Positions 3,063 to 45,519 of a DNA stretch of 46,085 nt are shown in pieces. The notes under the pieces were generated by a model. It had not been told where the DNA came from. It saw only the letters and a program-made list of their open reading frames with translations, and did no database searches. The stretch lies in the IMG/VR virus record IMGVR_UViG_3300035674_000149, positions 1-46,085 of that record. One strand, 5' to 3'. This stretch comes from a virus. Position 1 is the stretch's first letter; every line of letters starts with the position of its first letter. The position numbers and the translations under genes were made by a program.

Positions 3063-3085
3063 GGGTATGCGGGGTGAGGTTGCGG

Positions 3086-3176
3086 GCCGGATGCGGGACT
3101 CGAACCCGCGACCTCCGGGTAAACCCAGCGCTCTCACGATGCCCTCACGACACCGCGCCTGCTGAGCTAATCCGAC
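3086..3176 (-). tRNA. tRNA-like element, degenerate, anticodon unclear
   Basis: On the minus strand a 7-bp acceptor stem (GTCGGAT with ATCCGGC, one G-T pair) encloses 91 bases. The T arm is perfect (GCGGG, TTCGAGT, CCCGC), and a D stem GCTC/GAGC is present. The D loop, however, is 30 bases and contains a near-tandem copy (GTCGTGAGGGC then ATCGTGAGAGC). The hairpin where the anticodon arm should be, CTGGG-TTTA-CCCGG, has a 4-base loop instead of 7. A type II reading with anticodon UGA is possible but lacks U33. No CCA is encoded. It is probably a tRNA pseudogene or a tRNA mimic. Confidence 0.45.
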
Positions 3177-8499: not shown

Positions 8500-10827
8500 T
8501 CAGGCTCCCGGCTGCTTGACGGTGAGGGAGCCGTAGGGACTGGTCGAACTCTGGCTGCTGCTCGCCTTGCGGCCCATGAAGCCGACCTCGTAATCGGCGC
8601 CGGCGGTCAGGCCCGTCTTGTCGACCGTGAAGCTTAGGACCCCGGTCTCGGCTTCTCCCTCGAGGCCGCCAGTATTGCTCGACTCGCTCCCCTGCTGTTC
8701 GGCTGCGAAGTCCGCCCAGGCACCTCCCGATCCGGCGAGCCGGTAGACGAGCTTGCCGACCAGCCTGAAGACGAGCGTGATCGCGCTGCCCGGCCTCGGC
8801 GGCGTGTATTCGAGGAACAGCACGCCCCGAAGCACGCCGCTGCCGTCGGCGCGCAACGTCAGCACCTGGTTAGGGCTCGCCGGATAGGTGGAGGCGGTCA
8901 CCTGCGCGAAAGTCGAACTCGACTGGCTGGTCGAATAGCCGCCCGCCGGCGGCGTCACGCTCGCCGGCGGCGGCGCGTCCGCCTTCTTCAGGATCTGCAC
9001 CCGCTTGGTCTGGTCGAACGCGCCATATTGGCAGCGGACATCCGCGAAGCCGTCGGCGGAGACGCCCGTGATGGTCAGCACGTTCGTCGCGATCGAGCTC
9101 GTGTTGCCGGCGGCCGCGGGGCGCGAGAAGGTCGCGCTCGCCGTCAGGTCGGTGGCGCCCGCCTTCAGCGTGGCGGTGATCGATCGCGGCAGCTCGCTGT
9201 CCTTCACCGTGCCGTCGCTGTTGGCGAGCACGGTGACCGAGAGGATCGACAGGTCGAAGCTCAGCCCGTCGGCGCCAACCACGCGCGCCGCCGCGCTCCA
9301 GGTCGAGCCACCGTCCGTCGAGCTGCGCAGGTACAGGTCGCCGACGGCATAGTCGGCATGCCAGCCCGACGTGCCGTTGACGCTCCACTGGAACATGGTC
9401 TGCGGCGCCGCTTGGCCGGGAGCGCCGGGAGCGCCTGGGTCTCCGGGTGCGCCAGGTGCCCCAGGAGCTCCGTTCTGTCCGGCCCGCGCCAGCACCCGCC
9501 AGTAGGCGTTCGACTCGGTCGGCAGCATCGGCGGCGCGTTCCCGCTCGCCGGCGTCGGATTGACGTACAGCCAGGACGAGCCCTGCTGCTGGACGATATG
9601 GCCCTCGCGATAGGTCTCTCCGGCCTGATAATCCCCGCGCTCGACCAGCACCGAAGTGAACGCGACGTCGGAAAGGGCATGAACGTCGTGCGTCACCTCC
9701 GTCTCGATGCCGAGCCGGTGGAAAGGCGAGTCGATCTCGATCTGCTCGACCCTGGCAACCGGAGGCAGCGAGGCACCGCCCGCGTCGAGCGCCAGCGATG
9801 GCGCCGAGAAGCCGATCGGAGCGACGAAGAGTTGGCTCGTCCAGCTCACCCCTGCGACTGCGTTGACGCTGGCCGCCACGCGCTGGATCAGCTCGCGCGC
9901 AGTCACCTGCTCGGCCAAGTGGATTGAGATCGGCCAAGGGCGTGCCGCGTCCAGCGCGTCGACTGAAGCCTCGTTGATCCGGCCCGAGCCACCCGCCAGC
10001 AGCGCAAGCCGCTTGATCACCGCGCCAGGCAGCCGGACCCATCCGTCCGGACCGGCCTTGTCGCCACGTACATGATAGGCGAAGCGGCCGCCCGAGACCG
10101 GCGGCGCGCCGTGCCGCACCAGGCCTGCGGCCAGCGAGGTCGCCCAGCGCCCCGCCGGAATCGAGGCCGCGACCAGGGCGGCATAGCTTGCGAAGTCGCC
10201 GACACTCGACCCGAAGCGCAGCAGCCGCTCGAACGCGACCTCCACCGCCTCGATCTGGCCGTAAGAGGATAGCTGGTAGACGTTGTTGACCGTGTCGATC
10301 AGCTTGCCCGGCACGAACCGCGGAGCGCCGATGCTGAGCGGTTTGGGGCTACCCTTCAGAGCGGCCTCGCCCTCTGCGCCAGTGGTGCCGGCATAGAGGC
10401 TGAGCAGCGGCGTATCGAGCCAGCGATCGTCCACCGCGATTGGCAGCTCCGCCAGCCCATCGGCGACCCTCGCCTGCGCCATCGCACGCCCATCGAACCG
10501 AAGCGTGTAGCTGCCCCAGGCAGCGCCAATCTGCCCACTCCAGAGCCTCACCCGCGCGTCGGCGAGCGCGTAGCGAGGCAAATTGGCAGCCGTGGGCCCG
10601 AGTCCCTCCACCGCCAAGCGCAGCGACGAGGCCGGCGCGTCGATGCGCCCCGAAAAGCCGCCGTCCACCAGATCGTAGCGGAGCGACGGAAGCTTCGCGA
10701 TCCCCGGCCACCAAATCTGGTCGCCGAGATGGCAGACTCGCTCATCATCGACGCTCGACCCGCGCAGCGTGACGGGAGCGCCGGCCGCGGGATCGTAGCC
10801 GTCGATCTGGACCAGGAAGGCGGGCAT
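8500..10827 (-). CDS. Large tail-tip/fibre protein with collagen-like segment
   Basis: The 775-residue protein lies at the distal end of the tail cluster. The N-terminal half resembles a tail-hub or baseplate protein. A collagen-like Gly-x-y run (GAPGAPGAPGDPGAPGAPG, near nt 9415-9480) separates it from a C-terminal half of beta-rich domains, with a Pro-rich linker before the last one. Collagen-like runs form trimeric stalks in phage fibres, so this is probably a receptor-binding protein. The ATG at 10827 overlaps the stop of the upstream gene and is preferred to a longer start at 10899. Confidence 0.75.
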   Translation of the reverse strand: MPAFLVQIDGYDPAAGAPVTLRGSSVDDERVCHLGDQIWWPGIAKLPSLRYDLVDGGFSGRIDAPASSLRLAVEGLGPTAANLPRYALADARVRLWSGQIGAAWGSYTLRFDGRAMAQARVADGLAELPIAVDDRWLDTPLLSLYAGTTGAEGEAALKGSPKPLSIGAPRFVPGKLIDTVNNVYQLSSYGQIEAVEVAFERLLRFGSSVGDFASYAALVAASIPAGRWATSLAAGLVRHGAPPVSGGRFAYHVRGDKAGPDGWVRLPGAVIKRLALLAGGSGRINEASVDALDAARPWPISIHLAEQVTARELIQRVAASVNAVAGVSWTSQLFVAPIGFSAPSLALDAGGASLPPVARVEQIEIDSPFHRLGIETEVTHDVHALSDVAFTSVLVERGDYQAGETYREGHIVQQQGSSWLYVNPTPASGNAPPMLPTESNAYWRVLARAGQNGAPGAPGAPGDPGAPGAPGQAAPQTMFQWSVNGTSGWHADYAVGDLYLRSSTDGGSTWSAAARVVGADGLSFDLSILSVTVLANSDGTVKDSELPRSITATLKAGATDLTASATFSRPAAAGNTSSIATNVLTITGVSADGFADVRCQYGAFDQTKRVQILKKADAPPPASVTPPAGGYSTSQSSSTFAQVTASTYPASPNQVLTLRADGSGVLRGVLFLEYTPPRPGSAITLVFRLVGKLVYRLAGSGGAWADFAAEQQGSESSNTGGLEGEAETGVLSFTVDKTGLTAGADYEVGFMGRKASSSQSSTSPYGSLTVKQPGA

Positions 10828-12056
10828 CAGACGGCGAAGGCCCTGGTCTCGCCTGCGCTCCAGGCCGGGATGGACGCATGCTGCGCCGCATTGAACCAAT
10901 CGCCGCCGTCGGAGCTGAAGTCGATGAACAGATTGAGCGGGTCCTCCCGGAACGCGTCAGGGCGAACCGTAAGCACCACCTCGCCGATCTCGACGGGCAC
11001 GCCGAAGTCGACCGCCAGCCAATGGCCTCCCGCCGGAGGCGCGTTGGTGCCGACCGTCCAGAAGGTCGCCGCATTGTCGTCGATCGCCGCCGAAGGAACG
11101 TAGGGCCCGCCGAAGTCGGCACTTGCGAACGCCGTCTTCCCCGCGGTCCGATCCAGACTGCCCGCCACCGTGCGCATCTGCAGCTCGGCGAGGCCGAAAT
11201 AACCCCCGGTTGCGGTGCTGGATGTGCGGACACGCCAGTAGCGGTACTTGCGCGGCTTGGCCGCGTCGGCGCTGGGGATCGCGACCAGGTCGACCAGGTT
11301 CGCGCGCCATTCCCATCCGCCCGGCCGAGCCCAGATCGTGCCATGGTCGCCAAACATCAGCCCGAACCAGCACCTCTTCTGCCGTTGCGGGTGCGCGTCC
11401 GGATCGGTCACCAGCACGATCGGCTCCTGCCCGGCGCTGAGCTCGATCAGCGGCTGTATCTTGGCCTCGACTTCGTCCTTCTTCACCGCCGGGAAGGTCA
11501 GCCCCAGCGTCCGGAGCTTGGCGGCGCGGCGGCGCAGCAGCGCCCCCGCCGACGAGAAATCCGCCTGGCCGAGGTCGCGCAGCCCGAAGCCGCCGCCGAA
11601 CGCGAAATTGCGCTCGAGCGTCAGCTTCCTCCCGATCGCGAGCCGCCCGATCGTCAGCGGCGCGCCGCCCAGATTGCGGAACTGGATGCGCCAGTAGCGC
11701 GCGCTCACCGGCGCACCATTCTCCCACAAGGCGACGCCGCGGCCGTGCGACGGCATCTCGGCGCCGGCGAGGAACGGCATCCACGCGCTTTCGACAAGGA
11801 TCTGGCTATAGTTGCCGGTGAGCGTGCCGAGCACTTTCCACTCCCACCCCGCCTCGGCTCCCGAGCAACCGAACAAGGCGATCGCGTCGACGGCGGCGAC
11901 GTCCGCGCCGAAGTCGAGCAGCAGCTCGCCGCCGGTGAAGCTCCGCCAGACCACGCCCAGATAGTCGCTGAACAAGGCGTCGGGTGAAAAGCCGGGCGCC
12001 GTTTCGTGATACACCACCGCCGGCTTCAGCGGTCGCATCACCCACGCCTTGCCCAT
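10827..12056 (-). CDS. Tail/baseplate protein with discoidin-like domains
   Basis: The 409-residue protein has two regions resembling F5/8C (discoidin) beta-sandwiches. The first is around 40-145 (LLLDFGADVAAVDAIALFGCS to ARYWRIQFRN) and the second around 275-400 (YWRVRTSS, AIDDNAATFWT, LAVDFGVPVEIGEVVL). Such domains often bind sugars, which fits contact with a cell surface or capsule. It overlaps both neighbours by four bases or less, so it is one step in a coupled tail operon. The exact place in the tail tip is inferred from gene order. Confidence 0.65.
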   Translation of the reverse strand: MGKAWVMRPLKPAVVYHETAPGFSPDALFSDYLGVVWRSFTGGELLLDFGADVAAVDAIALFGCSGAEAGWEWKVLGTLTGNYSQILVESAWMPFLAGAEMPSHGRGVALWENGAPVSARYWRIQFRNLGGAPLTIGRLAIGRKLTLERNFAFGGGFGLRDLGQADFSSAGALLRRRAAKLRTLGLTFPAVKKDEVEAKIQPLIELSAGQEPIVLVTDPDAHPQRQKRCWFGLMFGDHGTIWARPGGWEWRANLVDLVAIPSADAAKPRKYRYWRVRTSSTATGGYFGLAELQMRTVAGSLDRTAGKTAFASADFGGPYVPSAAIDDNAATFWTVGTNAPPAGGHWLAVDFGVPVEIGEVVLTVRPDAFREDPLNLFIDFSSDGGDWFNAAQHASIPAWSAGETRAFAV

Positions 12057-12427: not shown

Positions 12428-15400
12428 CTAAAAGCTCGCGGCGCGTACAGAGCGCAGGGCGCCGCCGATGAAGCCGTCGCCTCCGCCACCCCCAGCGATC
12501 CGCTCCAGCACGCCCTCGATCGCGGCCAGGCGCTGGTTCGCCTGATCGAGGATGTTCGCCATCGAGCCGGTGTTCGCCGCCGTCTTCTCCGCGAACGGGT
12601 CGGCCGCGGTCCGGATCGGCACCGCGCTGTCGATCGTCGAGATCGCCTTGCCGGTGGCCGCCTGGATCAGGTCCATCGCCTCGAAGAACTTGCCAGTCGA
12701 ACCGTAGAGCTGACGCTCCACGTCGAGATAACGCTGGGCGGCCTCCTGATACTTGGCCTGGTCGATCCGCTCGCCCTTGCCGATCGCGGCGAGGAACGGG
12801 TCGAGCGCGAGCTTGGCCGCCTCCTCCTGCTGGCGCAGTGAGAGTGGGCTGGAAGATCCGAAGTTCAGATCCTTGAGGAAGTCCTTGAGTCCAGCCGAGG
12901 CTTCGGAGGTCCGGGACTTCGTCTCTTCCAGCTCCAGCCGATAGAGCTGTTGCGCTTTTGCCATTTCCTCGGCCGAGGCCCCGCCCTCCTTGAGGGCTTC
13001 GATCGTGTCCTTCCACCGCTTGTTCAGCTCGTCGAGCCCGAAGCCGACCGGATCGAGCATCTGCTGCAGGCGCTTGGGGATGTCGCCCACGAGTTGCGCC
13101 TTCGCGAGCGCCTTCTCGATCGGCTGCCCCGAGGCGAGCAGGCGCTTCTGCAGGTCGCTGATCCCGCCGATGACGCCCCGTTCCAGCATAAGCGCGGTCG
13201 CCTTGCGGACCGCAGCTTCCTGGTCCTGCCCGAAGTCGATCGCACCCCGCTTCGTCTTGGTGCGGCCCTGGCCGCTAGGATCGAGCCGGATGTTCTTGCC
13301 TCGCACGCCGAACGACACGCCGGTGACCGACTCCAGGTCGCCGCCAAGCTGCTCGGCTATCCGGCTGAGCGTATCGGCGAGCGTGCCGACGTAGCCCGAC
13401 GCCGCCTGGATGCGTGACCGGCTGTTGCCGCGGGTGGAGGTCACGCCGAGGTCGCCGTATTCGTCGAGGCCGATGGTCGCAGAGCCGCGCTTCACCGGCT
13501 GAAGCATCTTGAAGCCGAGTCCCCCCAGCACGCCGCCGAACAGCGTCGCGACGGGGTTGAGCTTCAAGAGGGAGCCGAGCCCCTGCTGAACGGCAATCGC
13601 CATTCCAGCCGGGCCGGCCGCCGAGGCCGCGCCTGCTGCCTGCGACGCCGCCGCTGCGCCCGAGCCGCCCGGTAGTCCGGCGTAGTTGCTCGCCACCTGT
13701 TGCGCGAAGAGGCGCATGTCCGGACCGGCACCGGGCGTCCCGAAATTGCCTCCGCCGCCGAAGAGAGAACCAAGAACGGACAGCAGAGGGTTCCCGTAGC
13801 CACCGCCGCCGCTCAGTTGGGCGAGAATACCCCCTGGTGCGGAGAGGGGCTGGCCCGACGCCAGTTGCACCGTCCATTGCGCCGCGAGCTGGGCAAGCAC
13901 CTCCAGGCCGGCATCCTTGAAGCTTTCCCAGATGCCGCGGCTGCCGCCCTCGAATGCGTCTCGGTAGAAGTCGGCCAGATCCTCGACCTGATCGCGCTGA
14001 CGCTGGATCATGTCCTCCAGAGCCGCTTCGACCGCCTTTGGCGCGTCCTGGGCGTAGCCGCTCCAGAAGTCATCGAGGCTGGTCTTCACCCTCGCCTGAA
14101 GCTCAGCGACGTCATCGGCCGCGTGGCGGGCCTTGATCCGCTCCAGCGTCAGCTTTTCCGCCGTGGCGAGCTGATCGAGCAGCACCTGCGCCTCGGCTTC
14201 GCTGAGCCCGAGGGTGGTGCGAAGCTCGTCGTTCGTCTTGCCTGCGATGTCCGGGAATTGGGCGCGGAGTTGAAGAATGGTCTCCTCGATCTCCGCCTCC
14301 CGCTCGAACCCGGAGCGGCGCATGTCATCGAGGCGGATGCCGTTCGCGATCTCGCTGTTCGCCTGCTCGATCTGCCGAAGGATGTCCTCCCGCTTCTCCG
14401 CCTGCTCCTTCAGAGACTGGTTGACCATCTTCTCGGCGTCGGCCGCGGCATCGCCAGTGTCGGTCAGGAACTTACCCTTGGAGGGATCGACGTACTTGCC
14501 GCGAACCTTCACGCGGTAATCAAGGTGGGGCCCGGTGCTGTTGCCCGTGTTGCCGCTGAGAGCGATGATGTCTCCCTGAGCGACAGCCTGGCCTCGCTTG
14601 GCCACGGCTCTGCTCAGGTGGGCATATTGAGAAACTGTCCCGGCGCCGTGATCGACGATCACCACATTGCCGAAGCCGGGCAGGGTGCCCGTCTGGATCA
14701 CAACACCAGCGGCAGCGGCCTTCACGGGAGTGCCGACTGGAACGCCGTAGTCGAGCGCCGGGTGGTACGTGGAAGCGCCAGCCTTCGGGCGGGCGCGAGC
14801 GCCGAAACCCGAGGAGATCGGTCCGCTCACTGGATCGATGAACGAGGTGAGCTTGGCAGCCCGCTTTGCCTGAGCTTCGGCTGCGCGCTCCGACTTGGTC
14901 CGGGCTCGCTCCGTTTCCTGGATGGCCTCGATCGCCGCGTCCTTGTTCTTGCGGACGCTTATGAGGGCCCGGTCATACTCTTGCCAGGTCAGCCTTCCAC
15001 GCACGACCATGTCGGTGAGGCGGCTTTCCGCCGTCGTCAGCCGCTCGGTAGCGGCCAGCGCCGGGTCCATGCGCGCCGCAACCTGGCGCCGCACCATCGC
15101 GGCCTGCGCGCGCCGCTCAATCTGATCCAACTCGACTTGGGCCAGGCTGAGCTCGCCGAGCTGGGCACGGGCTCGATTGACCGCCACCGCCCCGCCAATC
15201 TCGGCAGCGCGGCGCTCCGCCGGATCTCCGATGAACCTGTTCGCCTCGACAGCGGCTAGAGTGTCCCTCAGCCGCGCGACGGCTTTTGCGTGGAGTGCAC
15301 GAGCCACCTCGGTGTTCGCCCTCGCCTCATCGTAGGCCCTTTGCTCGGCTTCACGGGATGTCTCAGCGCCGCGCTTTTGCTCGTCGTTGAGCCGCTTGGC

Positions 15401-16225
15401 GGCTTCGCGGAGCTTGTCGATCGACATCTTCTGAACGTCGAGAGCCTTGGTGGACTCTTCCGCGGCGTCTTTCCCCCGCAGCATGTTCACAGCCATCAGG
15501 CCGAGCAGCGCGACGGTGCCGACCGGACCGGCGAGCAAAGTAGCAATCCGCCCCACAGCGCCGCCGACACCCGACAGGACAAAGGCTGCCTGCGGTGCCT
15601 GCTGGGTGAGGGCAGTCAGCACCGACTGGCCGGAGCTTACCTGAATTGCAAAGTCCTGCGCCTGTTGCCCTGCTTGGGCGAATGCAGCCGCATTTCCGCG
15701 AGTGGCGTGCGCCGCGCCCGCCTGCGCGTCCGTTATGACGCGATTGCCGGCAACAACCCTTTGAGTGGCCGACGCGGTCTGGTTCAGTTCGGCTTGCAGC
15801 CGCTCCATCGCGGTTGCTTGCTGGGTCGCTTCCCGCGCGACGTTCTCCGCCTCGATCGCCGCGGCGCGAGCCGCCTGCACATAGATGCGCGTCGACTCCG
15901 AAGTGTCGTTGTTCGACCGGGCTGCCCGATCCGCGGCGACCGCCACCTCACGGAGCGCAATCGCATGCACCTCGGCGGCCTGTGCAGCGGCCCGATATTC
16001 CGTGACACCGACATCGAGCGCGCCAGCGTCATTGCGCTTCACGGACGTGGCGCGTGCCGCGATCCTGTTGATCGACTCGAAGCTGGTCTCAAAGGCGCGC
16101 TGCTGCTTGCCAGCCGCGTCATTCGCCCGCTTTTCCAGCTCGGCGAAGATGCGCGCATTCTCTGAGCTGAACGCCTTACCGTCCAGGGTCATGCGCGCGA
16201 TGATCTCGCGATAATTGGCCGCCAC
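12428..16225 (-). CDS. Tape measure protein with embedded M23-like peptidase domain
   Basis: The largest gene (1265 aa), from a GTG with AAGGAG before it. Long Ala-, Glu- and Arg-rich helices fill the first 450 residues, and hydrophobic segments occur around 200-255. A LytM/M23-like domain spans about 455-585: HPALD gives the HxxxD zinc pair and HLSR follows, but the usual HxH is HLD. Gly-rich parts follow near 790-880. The protein sets tail length; at about 0.15 nm per residue this suggests a tail of roughly 190 nm. The peptidase would help DNA entry through the cell wall if it is active. Confidence 0.88.
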   Translation of the reverse strand: MAANYREIIARMTLDGKAFSSENARIFAELEKRANDAAGKQQRAFETSFESINRIAARATSVKRNDAGALDVGVTEYRAAAQAAEVHAIALREVAVAADRAARSNNDTSESTRIYVQAARAAAIEAENVAREATQQATAMERLQAELNQTASATQRVVAGNRVITDAQAGAAHATRGNAAAFAQAGQQAQDFAIQVSSGQSVLTALTQQAPQAAFVLSGVGGAVGRIATLLAGPVGTVALLGLMAVNMLRGKDAAEESTKALDVQKMSIDKLREAAKRLNDEQKRGAETSREAEQRAYDEARANTEVARALHAKAVARLRDTLAAVEANRFIGDPAERRAAEIGGAVAVNRARAQLGELSLAQVELDQIERRAQAAMVRRQVAARMDPALAATERLTTAESRLTDMVVRGRLTWQEYDRALISVRKNKDAAIEAIQETERARTKSERAAEAQAKRAAKLTSFIDPVSGPISSGFGARARPKAGASTYHPALDYGVPVGTPVKAAAAGVVIQTGTLPGFGNVVIVDHGAGTVSQYAHLSRAVAKRGQAVAQGDIIALSGNTGNSTGPHLDYRVKVRGKYVDPSKGKFLTDTGDAAADAEKMVNQSLKEQAEKREDILRQIEQANSEIANGIRLDDMRRSGFEREAEIEETILQLRAQFPDIAGKTNDELRTTLGLSEAEAQVLLDQLATAEKLTLERIKARHAADDVAELQARVKTSLDDFWSGYAQDAPKAVEAALEDMIQRQRDQVEDLADFYRDAFEGGSRGIWESFKDAGLEVLAQLAAQWTVQLASGQPLSAPGGILAQLSGGGGYGNPLLSVLGSLFGGGGNFGTPGAGPDMRLFAQQVASNYAGLPGGSGAAAASQAAGAASAAGPAGMAIAVQQGLGSLLKLNPVATLFGGVLGGLGFKMLQPVKRGSATIGLDEYGDLGVTSTRGNSRSRIQAASGYVGTLADTLSRIAEQLGGDLESVTGVSFGVRGKNIRLDPSGQGRTKTKRGAIDFGQDQEAAVRKATALMLERGVIGGISDLQKRLLASGQPIEKALAKAQLVGDIPKRLQQMLDPVGFGLDELNKRWKDTIEALKEGGASAEEMAKAQQLYRLELEETKSRTSEASAGLKDFLKDLNFGSSSPLSLRQQEEAAKLALDPFLAAIGKGERIDQAKYQEAAQRYLDVERQLYGSTGKFFEAMDLIQAATGKAISTIDSAVPIRTAADPFAEKTAANTGSMANILDQANQRLAAIEGVLERIAGGGGGDGFIGGALRSVRAASF

Positions 16226-19012: not shown

Positions 19013-19447
19013 TTAGGCGAATTGCGCCGGGTCACCCCGGACGGTGGCGAACTGGATGGTGAAATCCTGCGCGAAGGCGATCCGGCGGGTCTCGGCGAGG
19101 GGAGCCAATTGAACCCGGCGCTGGCCTGCGATCTCTATCAGCTCGACCAGCCCCCCGAGGGCGCCGTCATCGGCGCACAAGGCCGCGACAGTGGCTGAGT
19201 GAAGCTCGATCATCTCGTCGTGAGTGGTGGCGCCGCCCTCCCCCTCGACATATCCTTCGACGGTGATCGCAAGCTGGAGTCTGCTCGTGTCCGTTTCCGC
19301 CTCGATCGGCTCGTCGCCATTGTCGTAGACGTGGAGCGCCGGGTAAGCTGCCGGATCGCCCGACGGCATGCGCTCGTATTCGTGGACGCTGGCCAGTGCG
19401 CCGAGCCGCCGATCGATCTCAGCAAAGATGAGTGTGAGAGCTGGCAT
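19013..19447 (-). CDS. Tail terminator-like protein
   Basis: The 144-residue protein begins MPALTLIFAEIDRRLGAL and contains PALHVYDNGDE and an ITVEGYVEG strand. This is the plan of tail-terminator or minor tail U-like proteins, a small alpha/beta fold that caps the tail tube and joins it to the head. It is directly upstream of the tail tube gene. The fold match is by pattern only. Confidence 0.6.
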   Translation of the reverse strand: MPALTLIFAEIDRRLGALASVHEYERMPSGDPAAYPALHVYDNGDEPIEAETDTSRLQLAITVEGYVEGEGGATTHDEMIELHSATVAALCADDGALGGLVELIEIAGQRRVQLAPLAETRRIAFAQDFTIQFATVRGDPAQFA

Positions 19448-19486
19448 AGGGATAAGCCTCTCAGGCTCGTCGGCGGAAAGTCGGCC

Positions 19487-21124
19487 CTACGAAACGTGAC
19501 TCGTTCCGCCCGATCCGGGCACGATCGCCGCCCAGGTCACCGCGCCCGACCCAATCGCACCGGCATCGACGGCACCCCCCAGGTCCGCCGGTCCGCCGGC
19601 CTTGCGCGCGAAAGCGGCAAGAACCTCCGCGCGGTTGGCAGGCGAGAAGGTCGGGCCGTCGAAGGCCGAGCTGTAGGCGATCGTGGCGCCGCCGAGCCCG
19701 AGCGTGATGTTGTCGGCCAGGCTCGGGCTGCCGCCGATCCCGAACGCCTCGGCAATGTTGCGCTCGACCCGGTGCGTTCCGCTGCTGGTGCTGCTGCTCG
19801 ATCCGGTGCCGACGAAGAGATTGCAGGTCGAAGGGTTCGACCCGCCAAATGCCACCCCGGTATTGTTCAGCACGACGCAGTTCTTGGCGTTCTCGATCTG
19901 GAGCGAGACCGAGCTGTCGCCGACGGTAACGTTGCCGATCATCTCGGCGATGAAGAAGCGGCCGCTGTCCGTGCCGCCCGATTTGAAGTCGGACAGCAGG
20001 GCGCCCTGCATGTCGTCGCCGCGCGAGCCGCCGGAGATCAGGATGTTGCGGTTGACCTTGACCGTCCAGTCGGTGGTCGCGGTGATCTTTCCGATCAGCC
20101 TGATCGCATCGACGTGAGGGCCGGCGCTGTCGGTCGGGCGGCCGACGCTCTGACCGACCACGTTGTCGGATATTTCAACCGGATTGTCCTGGCCGCCATA
20201 TTCGACGGCGATCCCGTCATCGTAGAAAAATTGAACGCGGTTGCCCTTGATGTTCACCACGGCTGTGGGGCCTAGCCGGCGCACGGAAACCGGGGTCGCG
20301 CCCCACTGGACCCAATTGTCCTCGATCGTGATGTTCCCGCCGACCGACCCATCGACGCCGCTGCCGCTCGCAATGATGTCGATGTTGTTGTTGGGATAAT
20401 TGCTCGAGGTCGAGAAGTCTCCGTAGGGGTCGGCCACGGCGCCCGACACATGGCAGCGCCGGATCGTGATGTTGTTGACGTTGTTGGCGCTCTCGCCGAT
20501 CAGGTCGAACTTCTTCTCGGCCGCCTTGGTGGTGGCGAGATCCTCGAAGACGACGCCGCGGGCCCCCCGCAGCACGAACCGGTTGACCGTCGTCCGGTCA
20601 CTCGCCTCGGTCGGCTCAGTCACGGTTCCGGTGAAGGCGGGGACCCGGCCCTTGATGACTAGCCCCCCATAATCGTTGCGGCGAAGCCTAGCGGCTACAC
20701 CGTCCACGCCAGTGACCAGGCTCGCGCCCCCGCGATAGCTGTCCGGGCGCACGAAAACCGTCTTCCCGCTCAGCGACGCGGCGGTCTGCGCGATCACAGT
20801 GTCCCATTCGGCCTGGGTGCGCACGTCCCAGGCATTGGCATCGATCGTCACCGTGACTGTCGACCCGTCACTCAGGCCGAGCACATAGGGCCCGCTAGCG
20901 AGGTTGGCGGTGTCACCAGCTGTCGAAGGCGACAGATACCCGCCCGTTACCTGCCAATGGCCGCTGGGATCACCGGAGGTGATCGAGGTGCCGGCAACCG
21001 GAAACCCGCCGGCACCTGCAGCGGTCAAAGCTCCAAAGCGCGTGGCGGCAGCTGGTGGTAGGACGCCACCGCCTTGGCGGTGCCGAGCCGCGACCTCTGC
21101 AACCGCGATGCCGCAGCCGATCAT
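19487..21124 (-). CDS. Beta-helix spike protein, probable head-spike fibre
   Basis: The 545-residue protein carries the repeated short turns of a right-handed parallel beta-helix: runs such as NNITIRRCHVSG, GNITIEDNWVQWG, VNIKGNRVQF and VEISDNVVG, each about 20-28 residues apart between 205 and 420. Such folds occur in phage spikes that bind or cut surface sugars. Its ATG overlaps the stop of the spike-base gene (ATGA). In the Rhodobacter capsules gene transfer agent, Rcc01079 (base) and Rcc01080 (fibre) form capsid head spikes that bind the host capsule. The same pairing here, between head connector and tail terminator genes, argues for a head spike rather than a tail spike. Confidence 0.7.
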   Translation of the reverse strand: MIGCGIAVAEVAARHRQGGGVLPPAAATRFGALTAAGAGGFPVAGTSITSGDPSGHWQVTGGYLSPSTAGDTANLASGPYVLGLSDGSTVTVTIDANAWDVRTQAEWDTVIAQTAASLSGKTVFVRPDSYRGGASLVTGVDGVAARLRRNDYGGLVIKGRVPAFTGTVTEPTEASDRTTVNRFVLRGARGVVFEDLATTKAAEKKFDLIGESANNVNNITIRRCHVSGAVADPYGDFSTSSNYPNNNIDIIASGSGVDGSVGGNITIEDNWVQWGATPVSVRRLGPTAVVNIKGNRVQFFYDDGIAVEYGGQDNPVEISDNVVGQSVGRPTDSAGPHVDAIRLIGKITATTDWTVKVNRNILISGGSRGDDMQGALLSDFKSGGTDSGRFFIAEMIGNVTVGDSSVSLQIENAKNCVVLNNTGVAFGGSNPSTCNLFVGTGSSSSTSSGTHRVERNIAEAFGIGGSPSLADNITLGLGGATIAYSSAFDGPTFSPANRAEVLAAFARKAGGPADLGGAVDAGAIGSGAVTWAAIVPGSGGTSHVS

Positions 21125-21390
21125 CAGTAGCCCGCGAACAATCCGGTCGCGGTGCCGCCGGCCCTGATCGCCCGAGCTGCCAGCGGATTGACGCCCGCGT
21201 TAACAGGGACGCCATTCCTTTGATCGCCGGCAATCGTCGTAAGGTTCACAGTGCCCGCGGCGGTCGCGAGTATGGCCCTGCACGGACCGTCTGGAAGGTC
21301 GCCGGCGCCTGGCGTGACCGGAACGTAGTCAAGCAGCGGGGCCGACGAGATTTGGCCGAAGATACCCGGCTCTGTGATGTTTTTCGCCAT
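21124..21390 (-). CDS. Spike base protein, RCAP_Rcc01079-like
   Basis: The 88-residue protein has the features of the RcGTA spike-base family: RAILATAAGTVNLTTIAGDQ, NPLAARAIRAGGTATGLFAGY at the end, and a small all-beta plan. In RcGTA this protein seats the spike fibre on the capsid vertex. AGGGGT precedes the ATG at 21390, and a longer frame to 21456 is less likely. It is coupled to the beta-helix gene by an ATGA overlap. Confidence 0.72.
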   Translation of the reverse strand: MAKNITEPGIFGQISSAPLLDYVPVTPGAGDLPDGPCRAILATAAGTVNLTTIAGDQRNGVPVNAGVNPLAARAIRAGGTATGLFAGY

Positions 21391-21394
21391 ACTG

Positions 21395-21718
21395 CTACCC
21401 CTGTTGCTGTTGAGGTGCTCGCTCGACGACCAGAAGCCACGCGGCGACGTCGTCACGGCGCGTGATGTCGTTCACCCGCCAGCGGAGGCCGTCATGGACC
21501 AGGGTGTCCGTCTTCGAGGGATCGCTCGGCAGGAAGCTGAACGGGACCTCGAACGCCTGCTTGCGCGTGGTCGCGCCGGGACCCTGATAAGCATCCGCGG
21601 CAGCTTCGGTCGGCACAGCCGTAATCGCCGCTTCGTCCAGGCCGGCACCGCTATAGACGACCGGCTCGGCGAAGGCGGCATGGATGGCCGCCAGCGCCAC
21701 GGTCTGGTGGCTAAGCAT
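21395..21718 (-). CDS. Head-tail joining protein (stopper/closure-like)
   Basis: The 107-residue protein begins MLSHQTVALAAIHAAF and later has a short beta-rich segment (DTLVHDGLRWRVNDI, WLLVVERAP). The size, the place after the capsid and the small beta-rich form fit the head-closure or connector proteins that joins portal to tail. The ATG at 21718 is preferred to a TTG three bases earlier. It ends a few bases before the spike-base start. Confidence 0.6.
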   Translation of the reverse strand: MLSHQTVALAAIHAAFAEPVVYSGAGLDEAAITAVPTEAAADAYQGPGATTRKQAFEVPFSFLPSDPSKTDTLVHDGLRWRVNDITRRDDVAAWLLVVERAPQQQQG

Positions 21719-21731
21719 CAAAATTTGCCGG

Positions 21732-22031: not shown

Positions 22032-22361
22032 TCAGACCTGGCCCGTGAGCTTGACGTTGACCGTCGCGTCGCCGCCGGCCGCCGCCTGCGTCGCGGCGCC
22101 GATCAGCTTGTTCCCGGACGCGGTGGTGGTGACGTTGCGGGCAGCGTTGTCCCAATAGGCCGCAGCGCCCTGCGTGAACGCGATGCCTGCCGCCTTGGTG
22201 AGGGTGAAGACGTCCTCGGTGACGCCGACGACCTCAGCGCCGGACGCGGCATCGGTGGACGCGACGGCGAAGATCACGCCGACCTGAAAGCCCTGCCCGC
22301 TGGTGAGCGCGTAGGGAGCGGTGAGGGTGAGATTCACACCCGGCTGCACAGTGTTGCGCAT
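22032..22361 (-). CDS. Capsid cement protein, DUF2190-like
   Basis: The 109-residue protein begins MRNTVQPGVNLTLTAPYALTSG and contains the DUF2190 pattern: GQGFQVGVIFAVA, GVTEDVFTLTKA, QGAAAYWDN, IGAATQAA and VNVKLTG. DUF2190 proteins decorate and stiffen the capsid. AGGAAAC is before the ATG. The place just after the capsid gene also fits. Confidence 0.8.
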   Translation of the reverse strand: MRNTVQPGVNLTLTAPYALTSGQGFQVGVIFAVASTDAASGAEVVGVTEDVFTLTKAAGIAFTQGAAAYWDNAARNVTTTASGNKLIGAATQAAAGGDATVNVKLTGQV

Positions 22362-22726: not shown

Positions 22727-24109
22727 TTACTGGCCGGGGTTGCGGTACAGGCCGCGGTGATCGATGACGGCGGCGCCGACATCGAGGCGAGCCTTGTTCT
22801 CAACGCCATCCACGTCGAAGCCGACGCGGGTGTCAGTGAACAGCTCCTCCTGGCCGAGCAGGTGCGAGAGCTCGATCACGTCGAACGCACCCGGATCCGC
22901 AGCGAGGAACCACTGCAGGCCGGTGATGCGAGGCTCGATGATGAGCTGGAGCTTGCCGGGGAACGGGTTGACGTTGCTCGACTGAGCAGCCGCCACCGCG
23001 GTGAGGAACTGCTCGGCCTCCGTTTCGCGCTCGGGGCCGACGATCAGGTAAGCGGGGCGCACGGTGAGGAAGGCTCCGTCCGCGCTCTTCTGCTGCGACA
23101 TTGCCAAGCGCCCGGCTCCGACCGTGGCGACGGTGATCCCGCCCCCGGAAGCGGCGAGGTTGCCGTGGCTGGCGTGGAACAGCGGCACACCGTCCGCCAT
23201 CGCCGGGTTGCTGGTGAGCAGGCCCCAGACGAGATCGGATTCGAGGTCCGCCGCGCGCCGGCCGAACATGTTTGGGATGCGCCCGAACAGGTTCTGGTCG
23301 TCATTCACGATCGCCTGCCGGGTGATCGGGATGATGCGACCATAGGTCTGGAGGCGGTAGGTCATCCCGCTGTCGGTGATCGCGCCCCGCTTGAACTCGC
23401 CGTTTTCCGGCACGTTCAGCAGCACCGGAGCGTCGCCCAGGCTGATGATGCTGGTCGGCTTGAAGTCCGGCAGGGTGCCTTCGCTCACGATCGGACGGAA
23501 GGTCTGGGGAGCCGCCGCGAAAGCCGCCCGCACGCGCTTGTTGCTCGCGTTCGAGAGGGCAAGCGCGAAGTCGCTGGTCGTGAGCGCGCCGAACCGCATG
23601 CCGAGCGCGTGGCCCGCGACATCCAGGCGGCTGAGCCCCTGGTGCCGGATGCCGGTACGCTGGAGATAGTCCCGCGACATCTCCATCAGCGTCATGCCGC
23701 GGAACTCACGCGCCGCCTGCATCCGCTGGTCGTCCATCTTCACGCTCGGATTCGCGCGCAGGGTGATCGCGTCCTCAATCGCGTTGCGGTAGCCCTCGGA
23801 CTCGGTGCCGGTGGCGCCCGCGCGAGCGTCGATGCTCGGAAGCTTGCGCTTCTCGAACAGACGGTCGTTGACGGCGGTCAGCAGCTCGGTCTCGCCAAGC
23901 GGCGTCTCCTCGTGCCGCTCGATCAGCTCGAGCGCGAAGTCCGCGCCAAGGTCCGGGCTGCGGCTGCACAGCTCGCGGATGCGCTTGTTGGTCACGGGCG
24001 AGCCGCTGCGGGCGCCAGCAACAGGCTGCTCCGGAGCGGGAGCCGGGGCGGGTGCGGGGGTCGGCGACGGCGTGGGCGACGGCGCCGGAGTCTGGGTCTG
24101 TTCGACCAT
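22727..24109 (-). CDS. Possible internal-start capsid product of the fusion gene
   Basis: Within the fusion, an ATG at 24109 (MVEQTQTPAP) is preceded by AAGGAGAG with ideal spacing of about six bases. This is a stronger site than that of many full genes here. It would give a separate 460-residue product starting with the linker and capsid domain, free of the protease. Because one virion needs hundreds of capsid copies but few proteases, such initiation would set the ratio. The product itself is an inference from sequence. Confidence 0.6.
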   Translation of the reverse strand: MVEQTQTPAPSPTPSPTPAPAPAPAPEQPVAGARSGSPVTNKRIRELCSRSPDLGADFALELIERHEETPLGETELLTAVNDRLFEKRKLPSIDARAGATGTESEGYRNAIEDAITLRANPSVKMDDQRMQAAREFRGMTLMEMSRDYLQRTGIRHQGLSRLDVAGHALGMRFGALTTSDFALALSNASNKRVRAAFAAAPQTFRPIVSEGTLPDFKPTSIISLGDAPVLLNVPENGEFKRGAITDSGMTYRLQTYGRIIPITRQAIVNDDQNLFGRIPNMFGRRAADLESDLVWGLLTSNPAMADGVPLFHASHGNLAASGGGITVATVGAGRLAMSQQKSADGAFLTVRPAYLIVGPERETEAEQFLTAVAAAQSSNVNPFPGKLQLIIEPRITGLQWFLAADPGAFDVIELSHLLGQEELFTDTRVGFDVDGVENKARLDVGAAVIDHRGLYRNPGQ

Positions 24110-24718
24110 TTTACTCTCCTTGGGGGTCGCGGCGGCGCCGCGGATGATGCAGGGATGCCCGCCCTGCGCGGCGCTCCGGGCACGCACCTGCGCGCCGGCA
24201 TCGAATGGGACCGCGACCATGGAGACCTCGACGGGCTCCCAATCGGTGGCGAGGAGGTGCGGACGCTCCCCCTCGCTTTCGGTCCGCAAGTAGGTGTGGA
24301 CGGCGTAGCCGACGCTGACGCTCCGGATATGGCCGTCGATGATCTTCTGGTTCGTGTCGGCGACGTCGGGCGTCCGGGCTAGGCTGACGCGGGCAATCCC
24401 CTGTCCGCCCTCGATCCGCGCCGTGCCAGGTACGACCGAACCAAGGACGCTGCGCAAGGTGTAATCCTGGTGGCTGTCGAGAAGGCAGGCGCCGTTGTTC
24501 AGCCGGTCCAGCCGAACGGCAGTCGCCTCCATGCTCAGCTCTTCGACGTAGAACTCGCCATCCAGCCAGTCGAAGCGCATGCCAGCAGCACCGGTCGACC
24601 AGGTGATCTCGATCGAGTTGTCCTCTTCCTGATAGGACGCGGGCCGCACTGAGGCGGCCCGGACCATCATCGGAGCAATCGTGCGCTGCTCAGGCGGCTT
24701 CAGCCGGCTTGGGTCCAT
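22727..24718 (-). CDS. Prohead protease / major capsid protein fusion
   Basis: The 663-residue protein has an HK97-type prohead protease (S78) from about 20 to 185, with likely catalytic His83 (DSHQDY), Ser135 (RSVSVGY) and Glu164 in EVSMVAV. A Pro-, Ala-, Thr- and Ser-rich linker covers 205-235. A Mu gpT-like capsid domain follows, from about 330 to 660, with residues such as RQAIVNDDQNLFGR and SDLVWGLL. Fusions like this are known in phages. The protease cuts the capsid N-terminal part during maturation. GGAG is before the ATG. It overlaps the portal stop by 29 bases. Confidence 0.88.
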   Translation of the reverse strand: MDPSRLKPPEQRTIAPMMVRAASVRPASYQEEDNSIEITWSTGAAGMRFDWLDGEFYVEELSMEATAVRLDRLNNGACLLDSHQDYTLRSVLGSVVPGTARIEGGQGIARVSLARTPDVADTNQKIIDGHIRSVSVGYAVHTYLRTESEGERPHLLATDWEPVEVSMVAVPFDAGAQVRARSAAQGGHPCIIRGAAATPKESKMVEQTQTPAPSPTPSPTPAPAPAPAPEQPVAGARSGSPVTNKRIRELCSRSPDLGADFALELIERHEETPLGETELLTAVNDRLFEKRKLPSIDARAGATGTESEGYRNAIEDAITLRANPSVKMDDQRMQAAREFRGMTLMEMSRDYLQRTGIRHQGLSRLDVAGHALGMRFGALTTSDFALALSNASNKRVRAAFAAAPQTFRPIVSEGTLPDFKPTSIISLGDAPVLLNVPENGEFKRGAITDSGMTYRLQTYGRIIPITRQAIVNDDQNLFGRIPNMFGRRAADLESDLVWGLLTSNPAMADGVPLFHASHGNLAASGGGITVATVGAGRLAMSQQKSADGAFLTVRPAYLIVGPERETEAEQFLTAVAAAQSSNVNPFPGKLQLIIEPRITGLQWFLAADPGAFDVIELSHLLGQEELFTDTRVGFDVDGVENKARLDVGAAVIDHRGLYRNPGQ

Positions 24719-26168
24719 TATCGTTACTCCAGAGGCGGTGAATCAGGCCGACCAGGAACCGGAACTGCTCGGATCGGTCCTCAGGGAGGCTGCCGCCCTG
24801 GGCGGGCGCGAAAGGGTCGCCCTTGAACAGCAGACCGAGGCCCTGCTGCGCCTTCGTGTCCTCGGCGATCTCGGCCATCAGCGTGTTGAAGTCGTAGCCG
24901 CGGGCGTTCACCAGGTTACGGCGGCTCTCCAGCCCAGCCTGCATCAGCGCGATATTGCCGTTCGCTTCCTTCTCGGGATCGACGCTCTCGAAAGGCGGTG
25001 GCGTCCACTTGATCTCATAGGAGCGGGCCGAGATGATCGACCGCTCACGAGCATCGCGCTGGAAGCGCTGCCAGATACGCTCCAGCCCGACCGGGATGAT
25101 CGTGTTGAACTGGATGCGGCCGATCGACCGCTGGAACTCCAGGCTGCCGGCGCGATAGCTCGAATAATTGACGTTCGAGAGATCGCCGCTGATGTGCTCA
25201 TAGGTCGTGCCGACGCCGGCCGCGGTCGAAAGCAGGGCCAGCTTCACGATGTCGTTCAGCCCGCCCGAGGGCTTTGGATCACCGAACGTGACGGTCTCCC
25301 CCGGCCGCAACCGCGAGATCATGCCGGGCTCGAGGGTCTCAGTCGCAAACTTGTCAGGCCCCTGGTCCTGGACCCGGCCGACGTCCTCGTCGCCCTCCCC
25401 ATCCGCCGGGGTGATGAAGCCCGCGAAGCAGGCTTCGATGTTCTTGCGGATGATCTCGGCCTCAACGCTCTCGTCGATGTCGCCGAGCCGCTTCACGACG
25501 GGCTCGAAGACGCTGATCCCGTGCCGCTGTCCGACATATTCCTGCACGAACAGGTGGATCACGTCCTGAGCGGGCACGCGAACGGGCCGCGGATTGGCCC
25601 AACGCTGGCCGGGGCGGCCGATCGAGAAATGATAAGCCACCGGCCGTCCCTCGGCGTCGTACTCCACGCCGTTCTCGATGTTCTCCTGGACGAGGTGCGT
25701 CGCCAGCATGCCAGCATCTAGGAGCTGAAGACGGAGCGGGACCTCGCCGACCGGCACCCGCTCCGTCCGCAGGACGATGAAAACCTCGCCCTCCCGGAAC
25801 ATTGTCCGGACCGCCAGTTCCTGGAGGCCGTAGAAGTCGAGCCTCCCGTTGAAGTCGCAGACCTTGGTCCAGTCGCTCCACAGCTTTGCAATGGACTTGG
25901 GGCCTTTCGGCGCGCCCGTGATGCCCCAGCCGATCGCATTGTTGACCAGCGTGTTCAGCGCCTTTTTGCCGAACGGGTCCTTCGCGGCCAGATCGAGGAT
26001 CTTTCGGCGGTCGACGAGCCGCGCAGGGCGGGCATCGTCGGGCTTTCCAGTGTTTCGGCTCCAAGCCGCGCTGGCCGAACCCGCAAAGCGGAGCCCGCGG
26101 CGCGCCATCTGTCGCTTCAGCCCCCATTTGGGCGAAACATAGGAGATTGCGCGGTCGAGAGCGTTCAC
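24690..26168 (-). CDS. Portal protein, lambda family
   Basis: The 492-residue protein matches the lambda gpB-like portal family: LDRAISYVSPKWGLKRQMAR at the N-terminus, DFYGLQELAVRTMFREGEVF, PAQDVIHLFVQEYVGQRHGIS and NYSSYRAGSLEFQRSI in order. Twelve copies should form the ring through which DNA enters and leaves the head. The GTG at 26168 overlaps the gpW-like stop (GTGA), the same coupling seen all along this operon, and is preferred over a TTG at 26177. Confidence 0.9.
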   Translation of the reverse strand: MNALDRAISYVSPKWGLKRQMARRGLRFAGSASAAWSRNTGKPDDARPARLVDRRKILDLAAKDPFGKKALNTLVNNAIGWGITGAPKGPKSIAKLWSDWTKVCDFNGRLDFYGLQELAVRTMFREGEVFIVLRTERVPVGEVPLRLQLLDAGMLATHLVQENIENGVEYDAEGRPVAYHFSIGRPGQRWANPRPVRVPAQDVIHLFVQEYVGQRHGISVFEPVVKRLGDIDESVEAEIIRKNIEACFAGFITPADGEGDEDVGRVQDQGPDKFATETLEPGMISRLRPGETVTFGDPKPSGGLNDIVKLALLSTAAGVGTTYEHISGDLSNVNYSSYRAGSLEFQRSIGRIQFNTIIPVGLERIWQRFQRDARERSIISARSYEIKWTPPPFESVDPEKEANGNIALMQAGLESRRNLVNARGYDFNTLMAEIAEDTKAQQGLGLLFKGDPFAPAQGGSLPEDRSEQFRFLVGLIHRLWSNDNGPKPAEAA

Positions 26169-26377
26169 GGACGGCAAATCCGCCCGACAGTGGTCCTCCG
26201 GCGGGGTGAAACACGGGTTGCAGCCGCCTGCAGCTCCGCCTTCATCTCCTTGCGGAGGGCAATCATCTCACTCGTATTCTGGTAAACGGTCTGCCGGCCG
26301 TCCGCGAAGGTCACGCTCTTGACCCCGGCGGTGATCGCCGCGTCGAGCGCGTCCAGATCGCTCTGTGTCCACGCCAT
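26165..26377 (-). CDS. gpW-like head-tail connector protein
   Basis: The 70-residue protein has the gpW pattern: LDALDAAITAGVKSVTFADGRQ, then a tyrosine (TVYQNT) and SEMIALRKEMKAEL. In lambda, gpW closes the portal after DNA packaging. The gene lies between terminase and portal as in lambda, and its first base overlaps the TerL stop. The C-terminus is Arg-rich. Confidence 0.85.
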   Translation of the reverse strand: MAWTQSDLDALDAAITAGVKSVTFADGRQTVYQNTSEMIALRKEMKAELQAAATRVSPRRRTTVGRICRP

Positions 26378-28467
26378 CAGCGGCTCCTTCGGTTCAGCCA
26401 GTTCGAGGTTCGGCGCCGGTCGATGAAGCTCGGCTTCGGTTTGGGTCCGGCAGCCGCCTCAAGCGCCGTATTCGGGGCTGCAGGCACCGGCGACCGTTCG
26501 GCGACCTCTTCCACTCGCCGGTTGAGCTTCATGCCCATGTGCAGAAGGCCGGCCAGGGCCGCGTAGGCGTAGACCCGGCAGTCCAGCGCCTCGTTCGCCT
26601 TGCCCTTGGGCAGCTCCCAGACGCGGTAGCGTTGGCCGGACGCAGTTTTCACCACCACGCGCTCGGCCGTGAGCTGGGAGAAGTACCCAATATCTCGATC
26701 GTGCGGGAAGTGCATGTAACCGGCGCCGGGCTCCTCAAGCGCCAGGCGCGACCGGATCATGTCCTTTGCCGCATTAACCCCGATGATCACCGGCCGAAAC
26801 TTGGTCCGGTTCGCCTTGGTCGGTCGGGCAGTGGGCCAGACCGGGCTGCGCTGCCCGCCGCGGGCACTTTCGCCCTTTATCGCCCACACCTTTCGGCCCA
26901 GCCGAGCCTTCGCGAAGGCATAAACCGCCTGCGTGTGGTGACCGCCGCTGTCCACGCACGCTGCGGAGACGGTGAACTCGCGCCCATCGGCCCGCCTGAA
27001 GGTCCGCAGGAGCTGCTCGTCGACGCGCGTCCAGAACTCTGTGGTGGCGGGATCGCCGTCGACCACCTGATAGTCGATCGACCAGCTTTCCTCGTTTCGG
27101 CCCCAGCCGACGAACTCCAGCTCGACGCGATCGTCTTGCACGTCAACGCCGGCAGTGATGATCCCGACGCCCTCGGGAACCTCACCGGGCCATTGCTCTA
27201 CCTTTGAAGCAAGCGTCTCGGCCTTGACGTCCTTCCCGGCCTTCAGCCGGTACGGGAGCCCGAGCTGGGTGTTCCACCACGCCTGCTTCTTGTCCTCGTC
27301 GTCCTTGGCTTCGATCCATTTCGCGGCGATGTTCGCCGGCTTGTCCTTCGGCCAAGGGCTGAACAGCTTGCCGCAGGTGAAGCTGGCGTGCTCGTTCGAG
27401 ACTGGCCAGCCGCCGCAGCTAGAGCACCTCGCCCGGTAGACGGCGTGCCGGTCGGACGACCACCAGTCCCAGACTGCCTCGACGTCGCCAGACTGACCGT
27501 AAGCGGCCATCGGGTCCTGCCGCTCGCCGCAGCAGGTGAAAGGCCGGGTCTGGTGCCATCTGATCGTGGAGAGGGCCCGGAGCCGCTCGCCCTCTTTCCA
27601 CCCCGCGCCGCAGGCGTCGCAGTGGATCTGCGCCGTCCGAGGGATGTGGTTGCCGTCCTGGTCCTTGTCCCATTCGACATGCCGGAAGAAGTCCGGGAAC
27701 AGCCGGTGCTGACAATGCGGGCACTCGATCGATGCCTTGCGCTGGTCTCCGTCGAGGTAGCTGCGCTCGATCCGGCTCTCGTCCTCGATCGTCGGCGAGC
27801 AGGCGCGGATGCTGAGCCAGTTGGCAAATGTCGCGGTGCGCTCGTCGCCGAGCGTGATCGGGTCGCCTTCCTTGGTGACCGGGTACTTGTCGGTCTCGTC
27901 GTAGAACACCGCTCGCACCGGGCGGCGCGCAAGGTTGTCCGGACTGCCCGCCCCGGCGAGCGCCAGAAATCCACCGGGAAAACTCTTGTAGAGCAGGGTC
28001 TCTTCAGCGTTGCGCGTGCTGCGAGAGCCCATGATCTCGCGAAGCACCGGCGTCGCCTTGATCAGCGGTGTGATCCGCTCCTTCGAGAACTGCTGCGCCG
28101 CGTCGTCCTTGGGCTGGACGAGAAGCATGGGCGCCGGGTCGAGGTGGGCGAAATAGCCGACCGTGTTCTCGATCAGCGATGTCTTCAAAAGCTGCGTCGC
28201 GACCATGACGGTGACTATGTGAACGCCGGGCTCGGTGATCGCGAGCATCGGCCCGCGGGCCACCTCTACCCGGCTCGTCCGCCATGCGCCCGACGTGCTC
28301 CCGGCTTCCTTCGCCAGCTTGCGGTAACGGTCCGCCCAATCCGGAACGCTTATCCGTGGCGGGGGCGTCCAGCCGCGCCGCCGGCCCTGCTCAAGCTTCT
28401 GTCGCGCTGTCAGCGGCGGCGAAGTCTGCTTCAGGTTCGCCGAGCTCGGCGAGCTGCTGATGAACAT
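26377..28467 (-). CDS. Terminase large subunit, GpA family
   Basis: The 696-residue protein has an ATPase domain with a degenerate Walker A, ATQLLKT (90-96), and a Walker B, AVFYDETD, with Asp190-Glu191. A zinc-binding part carries CPHC and CDAC pairs plus CCGE and CSSC. The nuclease domain has GVDVQDDRVE near 440 and a second acidic site near CVDSGGHHT. This is the lambda gpA plan: it cuts concatemers and pumps DNA. The start at 28467 overlaps TerS by 77 bases and has no clear ribosome site, so re-initiation or a nearby start is possible. Confidence 0.9.
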   Translation of the reverse strand: MFISSSPSSANLKQTSPPLTARQKLEQGRRRGWTPPPRISVPDWADRYRKLAKEAGSTSGAWRTSRVEVARGPMLAITEPGVHIVTVMVATQLLKTSLIENTVGYFAHLDPAPMLLVQPKDDAAQQFSKERITPLIKATPVLREIMGSRSTRNAEETLLYKSFPGGFLALAGAGSPDNLARRPVRAVFYDETDKYPVTKEGDPITLGDERTATFANWLSIRACSPTIEDESRIERSYLDGDQRKASIECPHCQHRLFPDFFRHVEWDKDQDGNHIPRTAQIHCDACGAGWKEGERLRALSTIRWHQTRPFTCCGERQDPMAAYGQSGDVEAVWDWWSSDRHAVYRARCSSCGGWPVSNEHASFTCGKLFSPWPKDKPANIAAKWIEAKDDEDKKQAWWNTQLGLPYRLKAGKDVKAETLASKVEQWPGEVPEGVGIITAGVDVQDDRVELEFVGWGRNEESWSIDYQVVDGDPATTEFWTRVDEQLLRTFRRADGREFTVSAACVDSGGHHTQAVYAFAKARLGRKVWAIKGESARGGQRSPVWPTARPTKANRTKFRPVIIGVNAAKDMIRSRLALEEPGAGYMHFPHDRDIGYFSQLTAERVVVKTASGQRYRVWELPKGKANEALDCRVYAYAALAGLLHMGMKLNRRVEEVAERSPVPAAPNTALEAAAGPKPKPSFIDRRRTSNWLNRRSR

Positions 28468-29002
28468 GCGCGGTCAGAGCCTCGATGATCGGCTCCGGCT
28501 CGAGACCGAGGTCGGCCGCCATGAGCGGCCCGACCCGGCTCGGGAAGTTCAGCCAGGCGTCGCGTTCGGCGCGGGCGCTCTCGAATAGAACGCTCTTCGC
28601 GGTCTCGACGTCCACCAGGTCACCGGCCTTGCGGCGGGCGTCCAGCAGGTGCTTCAGCGCAAGGCCGTTTTCCTTGACCCGGATCGCATCGGCCTCGGTG
28701 GCAAACTTGCCGGAGAGGAGCTTGGAAACGAAGTCGTCGAGGAACTCGTCGGTCGCGTCCTCGACTTCGAAGTCACCATCTGGAGGGTGCGAACCACCCG
28801 ATTGGTTCGCAGTGCTGTTCGCACTTGGGTTCGCACGGCGGTTAGTCTCTCGCCACGGTGATCCGACTAGTGCCGGATCGAGCTTTCCACCGCCCGACAG
28901 CCGCAGTTTCCCTTGCTTTATGGCCTTTCGCACCAAGGTGTCGCTGCATCCTTCGCGCCTTGCGAACTCGCGGAGTGACAATCCTGCGAACACTGCGAAC
29001 AC
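28391..29002 (-). CDS. Terminase small subunit
   Basis: The 203-residue protein has an N-terminal helix-turn-helix (SLREFARREGCSDTLVRKAI), the DNA-binding part of Nu1-like small terminases. A linker rich in Asn and Ser follows, then a helical part (about 85-200) for oligomerisation and TerL contact. The GTG at 29002 is used here; a GTG at 28993 has a better ribosome site (AAAGG eight bases before), so the true product may be three residues shorter. It recognises the packaging site, which is not obvious in the sequence. Confidence 0.78.
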   Translation of the reverse strand: MFAVFAGLSLREFARREGCSDTLVRKAIKQGKLRLSGGGKLDPALVGSPWRETNRRANPSANSTANQSGGSHPPDGDFEVEDATDEFLDDFVSKLLSGKFATEADAIRVKENGLALKHLLDARRKAGDLVDVETAKSVLFESARAERDAWLNFPSRVGPLMAADLGLEPEPIIEALTAHVHQQLAELGEPEADFAAADSATEA

Positions 29003-45425: not shown

Positions 45426-45437
45426 GCCATGGCATCA

Positions 45438-45477: not shown

Positions 45478-45519
45478 GGATGCGCCGACCCTGCCAGCTT
45501 CGGCGTTTTGCGGCAAGCC

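Follow-up and report, generated by a model that had tools for sequence, protein, structure and literature searches.

Structural genes around the pair

The window, meaning the whole stretch of DNA analysed, is the 46,085-base virus record IMGVR_UViG_3300035674_000149. Because it carries a tyrosine integrase gene (44313–45425), we take it to be a temperate phage or prophage. A gene transfer agent (GTA) is recognized by structural genes alone, without integration or recombination genes of its own; in the window we detected the integrase, an adjoining HTH gene, an ERF recombinase and both terminase subunits, and the element is an ordinary temperate phage carrying a GTA-type spike. Beyond the integrase, positions 45370–45516 translate like tRNA read-through and may represent an attachment site; no tRNA was found there, and ARAGORN reported an unusually long tRNA-Ala at 3084–3176.

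The structural genes form a block on the minus strand. In gene order, they are the terminase subunits (26377–29002), the portal (24690–26177), a fusion of major head protein and protease (22727–24718; PHROG 4523, E 9e-206) that would make up the capsid on which a spike would sit, a head decoration or cement protein (22032–22361; PF09956, E 1.4e-24; PHROG 122), and the head closure or head–tail attachment protein (21395–21721; PF05354, E 7e-8; PHROG 82 (Hc1), E 2.2e-5). Two intact open reading frames follow, encoding proteins of 88 aa (21124–21390) and 545 aa (19487–21124), and then the tail terminator (19013–19447), further tail genes, the tape measure (12428–16225) and the tail-tip region (8500–12056), which has PHROG tail-fibre matches and a Gly-X-Y stretch pointing to a collagen-like tail fibre. 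The tape measure also contains an M23-type peptidase domain at about residues 470–618. The terminator's own library match is weak (PHROG 176, E 0.39), and six related phages keep both its homology and its place beside head closure. The first-pass annotation had set the pair between the head connector and tail terminator genes, far from the tail-tip genes; PF05354 and PHROG 82 for the closure protein and the six relatives for the terminator agree with the former placement, and for the latter the tail-tip genes lie beyond the tape measure.

The 88-aa protein as a member of the spike-base family

The 88-aa protein matched the NCBIfam family NF048002, 'spike base protein, RCAP_Rcc01079 family', at 30.2 bits against a cut-off of 28 (E 3.9e-7), and a six-frame search of the whole record recovered the same region. 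Because a margin of 2 bits is thin, the base was put to three further tests. It is 44% identical to a base from the sphingomonad locus L160, whose own score is 40.6 bits. A subfamily profile, A3, was built from the window base and 14 viral relatives found through L160, with no GTA member included; searched against the whole PDB, it had the base of the Rhodobacter capsulatus gene transfer agent (RcGTA) as its sole significant entry (E 2.5e-4), and a profile of the wider family reached Rcc01079 at E 1.7e-26. The AlphaFold model of the base (pLDDT 80.4) was compared by Foldseek with 350,542 PDB chains: the top two were the capsid spike bases of Carin1 and RcGTA, at probability 1.00 and TM 0.64–0.70 with E-values of about 0.02 (modest, as expected for 88 residues), and all remaining chains fell at probability 0.23 or below. 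Superposed on 6tb9_A1, the model gave TM scores of 0.67/0.70 and 2.0 Å over 74 columns, so that its predicted fold is the RcGTA-base jelly roll.

The window base is a divergent member of NF048002. Glu12 of the RcGTA base, which binds a capsid cation, aligns with Ser16 here, and most of the family also lacks Glu12. An alignment of 13 bases proved too divergent for a collection scan, and the only match when viral contigs were searched with the window base (L002) was a chance match within a long T4-like baseplate-type protein. The first-pass annotation had proposed an Rcc01079-like spike base, a proposal that stood or fell with similarity to the spike-base fold; we made that comparison and found similarity by sequence profile as well as by fold, which together with the NF048002 score above cut-off bears the proposal out.

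Gene coupling and the N-terminal anchor of the fibre

The 88-aa and 545-aa genes follow each other directly and are translationally coupled. They overlap by one base, TGATG, rather than through the ATGA previously described, and the same −1 offset of the next gene was found in 33 of 54 family loci with a base HMM score of 40 or more. The order of base then fibre had been likened to that of RcGTA, and the likeness goes further than first noticed, extending to an N-terminal anchor. In RcGTA, a base pentamer on the capsid pentons holds one fibre, whose residues 2–10 (IALGLGLGL) fill hydrophobic pockets in the shape of a five-point star (PMC7296036). The window fibre starts M-I-G-C-G-I-A-V-A-E-V, with the anchor M-I-G-C-G-I-A-V-A at 21098–21124, in which I2, C4, I6 and V8 make an alternating hydrophobic/small run of four; as a sequence pattern this resembles the RcGTA-type anchor with four positions in register instead of five.

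Over the same stretch, a run of at least four occurred in 7 of 1157 control genes and a run of five in none, the RcGTA fibre having five; the three-position form was present in 27 next genes of the 54 loci against 45 of 938 control genes. It was the published structure that suggested the pattern, and because the exact residue classes were chosen after some family members had been seen, both counts are supportive rather than a blind test. The partners of spike bases in cultured phages begin similarly (RcapNL MGLGLGIGLGL, P8625 MIGLGLDLSL, Pben1 MLIGLGIGIGF, ZHS MIGLGLNIW, immuto MYIGLGISL), and the partner in phage elemo starts without the pattern. In four loci (L208 8219–8371, L210 1636–1785, L133 and L141) the base is followed by a peptide of about 50 aa with the anchor motif and only then by a separate protein, three of the four peptides containing repeats such as LLLEDG; these peptides are possibly stand-alone adaptors joining a base to a receptor-binding protein.

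The fibre body and its candidate ligand

The fibre body (approximately residues 28–523; 19556–21043) is the candidate polysaccharide-binding part. No library match named its family or fold, searches of viral contigs with the fibre found nothing, and a PDB profile search with two fibres gave no match. The only significant match among annotated phages, EBPR podovirus 2 gp38 (24% identity, E 1e-6), was set aside, its context telling nothing. Among 399 sphingomonad genomes we detected a single full-length relative, G092 (locus L190), 43% identical over about 490 residues, which directly follows the base that scored highest in those genomes (114 bits) and has its own anchor, MNGYGFGIA. Five coils of the [IV]x[IV]xxNx[IV] type were found in the window fibre (P = 0.0085 against shuffles), a pattern that G092 shows less clearly (P 0.08), and a single-sequence AlphaFold model was unusable (pLDDT 36.9). 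Of the 545-aa beta-helix protein first described, the intact 545-aa reading frame stands, and the five coils and the 43% relative suggest, tentatively, that the body may be a parallel beta-helix.

The G092 locus also encodes a Wzx-type flippase, an O-antigen-ligase-like protein, a glycosyltransferase and an acyltransferase, and the L160 locus another such flippase together with two glycosyltransferases. In R. capsulatus, the spike genes adjoin the capsule genes rcc01081–01086 and the head fibres bind capsule (PMC10218006). Because relatives of the pair lie in polysaccharide loci and R. capsulatus has this capsule setting, a capsule or exopolysaccharide is the best guess for the ligand, and by analogy the window fibre would bind a sugar. 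Base/fibre pairs of sphingomonads were often found within exopolysaccharide loci with flippase, Wzc/Wza-like and glycosyltransferase genes (L192, L177, L184, L190, L160 and others), and the GTA hub gene of those genomes usually lies elsewhere than the spike pair. The GTA hub domain PF09931 occurred once in 14 of the 16 sphingomonad genomes with spike bases, and GTA_TIM (PF13547) in none of the 16, a Caulobacter control being positive for both; PF13547 is therefore no usable marker in sphingomonads.

The host of the window phage is probably a sphingomonad, as suggested by the fibre relative, by a Sphingomonadaceae MAG with a 66% identical terminase, and by relatives of the head protein in sphingomonad genomes.

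The pair as an inserted cassette

Relatives of the terminase were uninformative for the question of a cassette, as they lack the base and their head genes were unmatched except for the portal and two weak closure matches. We therefore used the head protein/protease fusion, which had 17 viral relatives and others from sphingomonad genomes. In the six relatives with both flanks resolved (L226, L228, L229, L245, L246 and L248), the head closure gene runs straight into the tail terminator gene, sharing 4 bases with it (8 in L246), and no gene intervenes. Because the two genes abut in all six, the base and fibre appear as an insertion, spanning 19448–21394 of the window. The simplest reading of these sequences is that the window lineage gained the pair at a normally closed junction; loss of the cassette from all six relatives is less likely. 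A further relative, IMGVR_UViG_3300034175_000205, carries a base and a fibre starting MIGFGFGQ elsewhere, after its tail-tip genes.

Head spike, tail fibre or enzyme

We consider it likely that the pair encodes capsid head spikes of the RcGTA type, acquired as one cassette at the closure/terminator junction. This has a sound basis in the family and fold of the base, the anchor pattern, the gene coupling, a homologous fibre body beside a true base, and the empty sites of relatives. That the cassette instead decorates the tail, with base and fibre on the tail tip, is the least credible of the readings we weighed. Databases do label the base this way: PHROG 12296 and RefSeq call it 'tail fiber protein', as in JQ066768, NC_029047, NC_055853 and MW353176, and the pair is placed after the tail genes in RcapNL, P8625, Pben1 and L213, for which reason gene position is suggestive of the head and not decisive. 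Against this, the base lies among head or connector genes in the window and in several other genomes: directly between the major head protein and adaptor genes in L207, past the major head protein but still ahead of the adaptor, from which fibre genes separate it, in L204, inside the portal-to-head-protein block beside a 'putative head fiber protein' in Edwardsiella phage ZHS, directly after the major capsid gene in Flavobacterium phage immuto, and, with its fibre, between the major head protein and head–tail adaptor of the GTA-type cluster in genome G126 (L199 6660–18776). In L208 it follows the tail terminator. It is the solved structures that decide for a head location of the base family; both members, RcGTA and Carin1, come from capsid reconstructions and are capsid vertex proteins, and we rejected the tail location because of them. 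The 'tail fiber protein' label probably gives the wrong location. Rhodobacter phage RcZahn gp133 (92018–92302; L097/L189) is a spike-base homologue with a low score (19.9 bits); the gene after it encodes an acetyltransferase, and no fibre gene adjoins it.

An improbable alternative, though one we would rank above a tail location, is that the base is a true vertex protein acting alone as a small decoration, and the 545-aa product a neighbouring tail protein or free enzyme. Several bases of the same subfamily (L203, L205 and L207) have no anchored fibre next door, the next gene being the head–tail adaptor in L205 and L207, and beta-helix proteins are commonly tailspikes. Base partners, however, typically show the anchor motif and a one-base overlap, and the window fibre has both; the 43% relative, too, is the anchored partner of a base, and no tail-attachment domain was recognised in the 545-aa protein. 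A variant that keeps the head position makes the fibre mainly an enzyme, a depolymerase or deacylase that cuts capsule. The window fibre and its relative agree at many acidic and His residues (for example Y301-D302-D303 and H337-x-D339), a GDSL hydrolase domain occurs on the head-spike fibre of another phage (L217), and the RcGTA beta-helix tailspike degrades biofilm (PMC13420450). Yet no enzyme family was recognised in the fibre, an active site cannot be defined from two sequences, and the head fibres of RcGTA are known only to bind, so we regard a mainly enzymatic role as rather unlikely.

A model of the spike and its meaning

For the head spike, we infer its arrangement on the particle from these likenesses. 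Five copies of the 88-aa jelly-roll protein would assemble at each capsid vertex, and each pentamer would hold one 545-aa fibre by its first ~8 residues, with I2, C4, I6 and V8 plugging pockets in the subunits. Beyond this anchor the fibre would swing away from the capsid to bind, and perhaps also trim, a capsule or exopolysaccharide on an alphaproteobacterial host. Flexible spikes on up to eleven vertices would most likely give a weak, repeated grip on the polysaccharide coat, so that contact would begin loosely at the head and pass to the tail fibre afterwards. Both genes would have arrived as one cassette at the head-closure/tail-terminator junction. The phage may thus have two receptor systems, head spikes and a tail fibre; the context for this is that related pairs lie in polysaccharide loci and that the window has a separate tail fibre. 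The prophage could then attach to its host's sugar coat by head and tail alike.

Head spikes of this kind are already known from the RcGTA type structure, an earlier match in RcapNL, and the NCBIfam family. New, as far as the literature shows, are this type of fibre, the place where the cassette is inserted, the wide occurrence of the anchor, and the link to sphingomonad polysaccharide loci. Few particles are known to carry receptors on the head, and the genes for such receptors mostly bear the label 'tail fiber' or 'hypothetical'. A base followed by a short anchor offers a sequence signature for spikes in alphaproteobacterial, flavobacterial, verrucomicrobial and gammaproteobacterial phages, and the anchor a ready test for proteins that ride on capsid vertices. 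We suggest, as a speculation more doubtful than the head spike itself, that spike cassettes are modules which phages exchange with polysaccharide loci in GTA-producing sphingomonads, such that the prophage carries the ligand by which its host's own GTA recognises the capsule of kin, fixed to the capsid by a short, widespread anchor. The polysaccharide-locus link makes shared capsule ligands of phages and gene transfer agents a testable question.

Comparison with known systems

The window pair shares its fibre body with G092, likewise the anchored partner of a canonical base, which differs in lying in a cellular polysaccharide locus rather than in a prophage and in having a Pro-rich linker after the anchor that is missing from the window fibre. 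The Carin-1 spike base (PDB 8cjz) is a capsid vertex protein matched by fold (probability 1.00) and by profile (E 5.7e-7), though it belongs to a podovirus of Cobetia and is only 20% identical to the window base. RcapNL_00029/00030 of Rhodobacter phage RcapNL, whose match to the spike base has been reported before (as cited in PMC8601537), also combine a base and an anchored partner with a one-base overlap, but the partner has only 144 aa and the pair, annotated 'tail fiber protein', follows the tail genes. Compared with RcGTA (Rcc01079 GhsA and Rcc01080 GhsB, PDB 6tb9), the window pair is embedded among the structural genes of a prophage, with head closure on one side and tail terminator on the other, and goes with a different capsid type (the head protein/protease fusion), with a fibre of 545 rather than 325 aa, a weaker anchor, and a base without Glu12. 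The two systems have in common the base family and its jelly roll, the order of base then fibre, the hydrophobic fibre anchor, and a tie to surface sugars, relatives of the window pair lying in polysaccharide loci as the RcGTA spike genes lie beside capsule genes.
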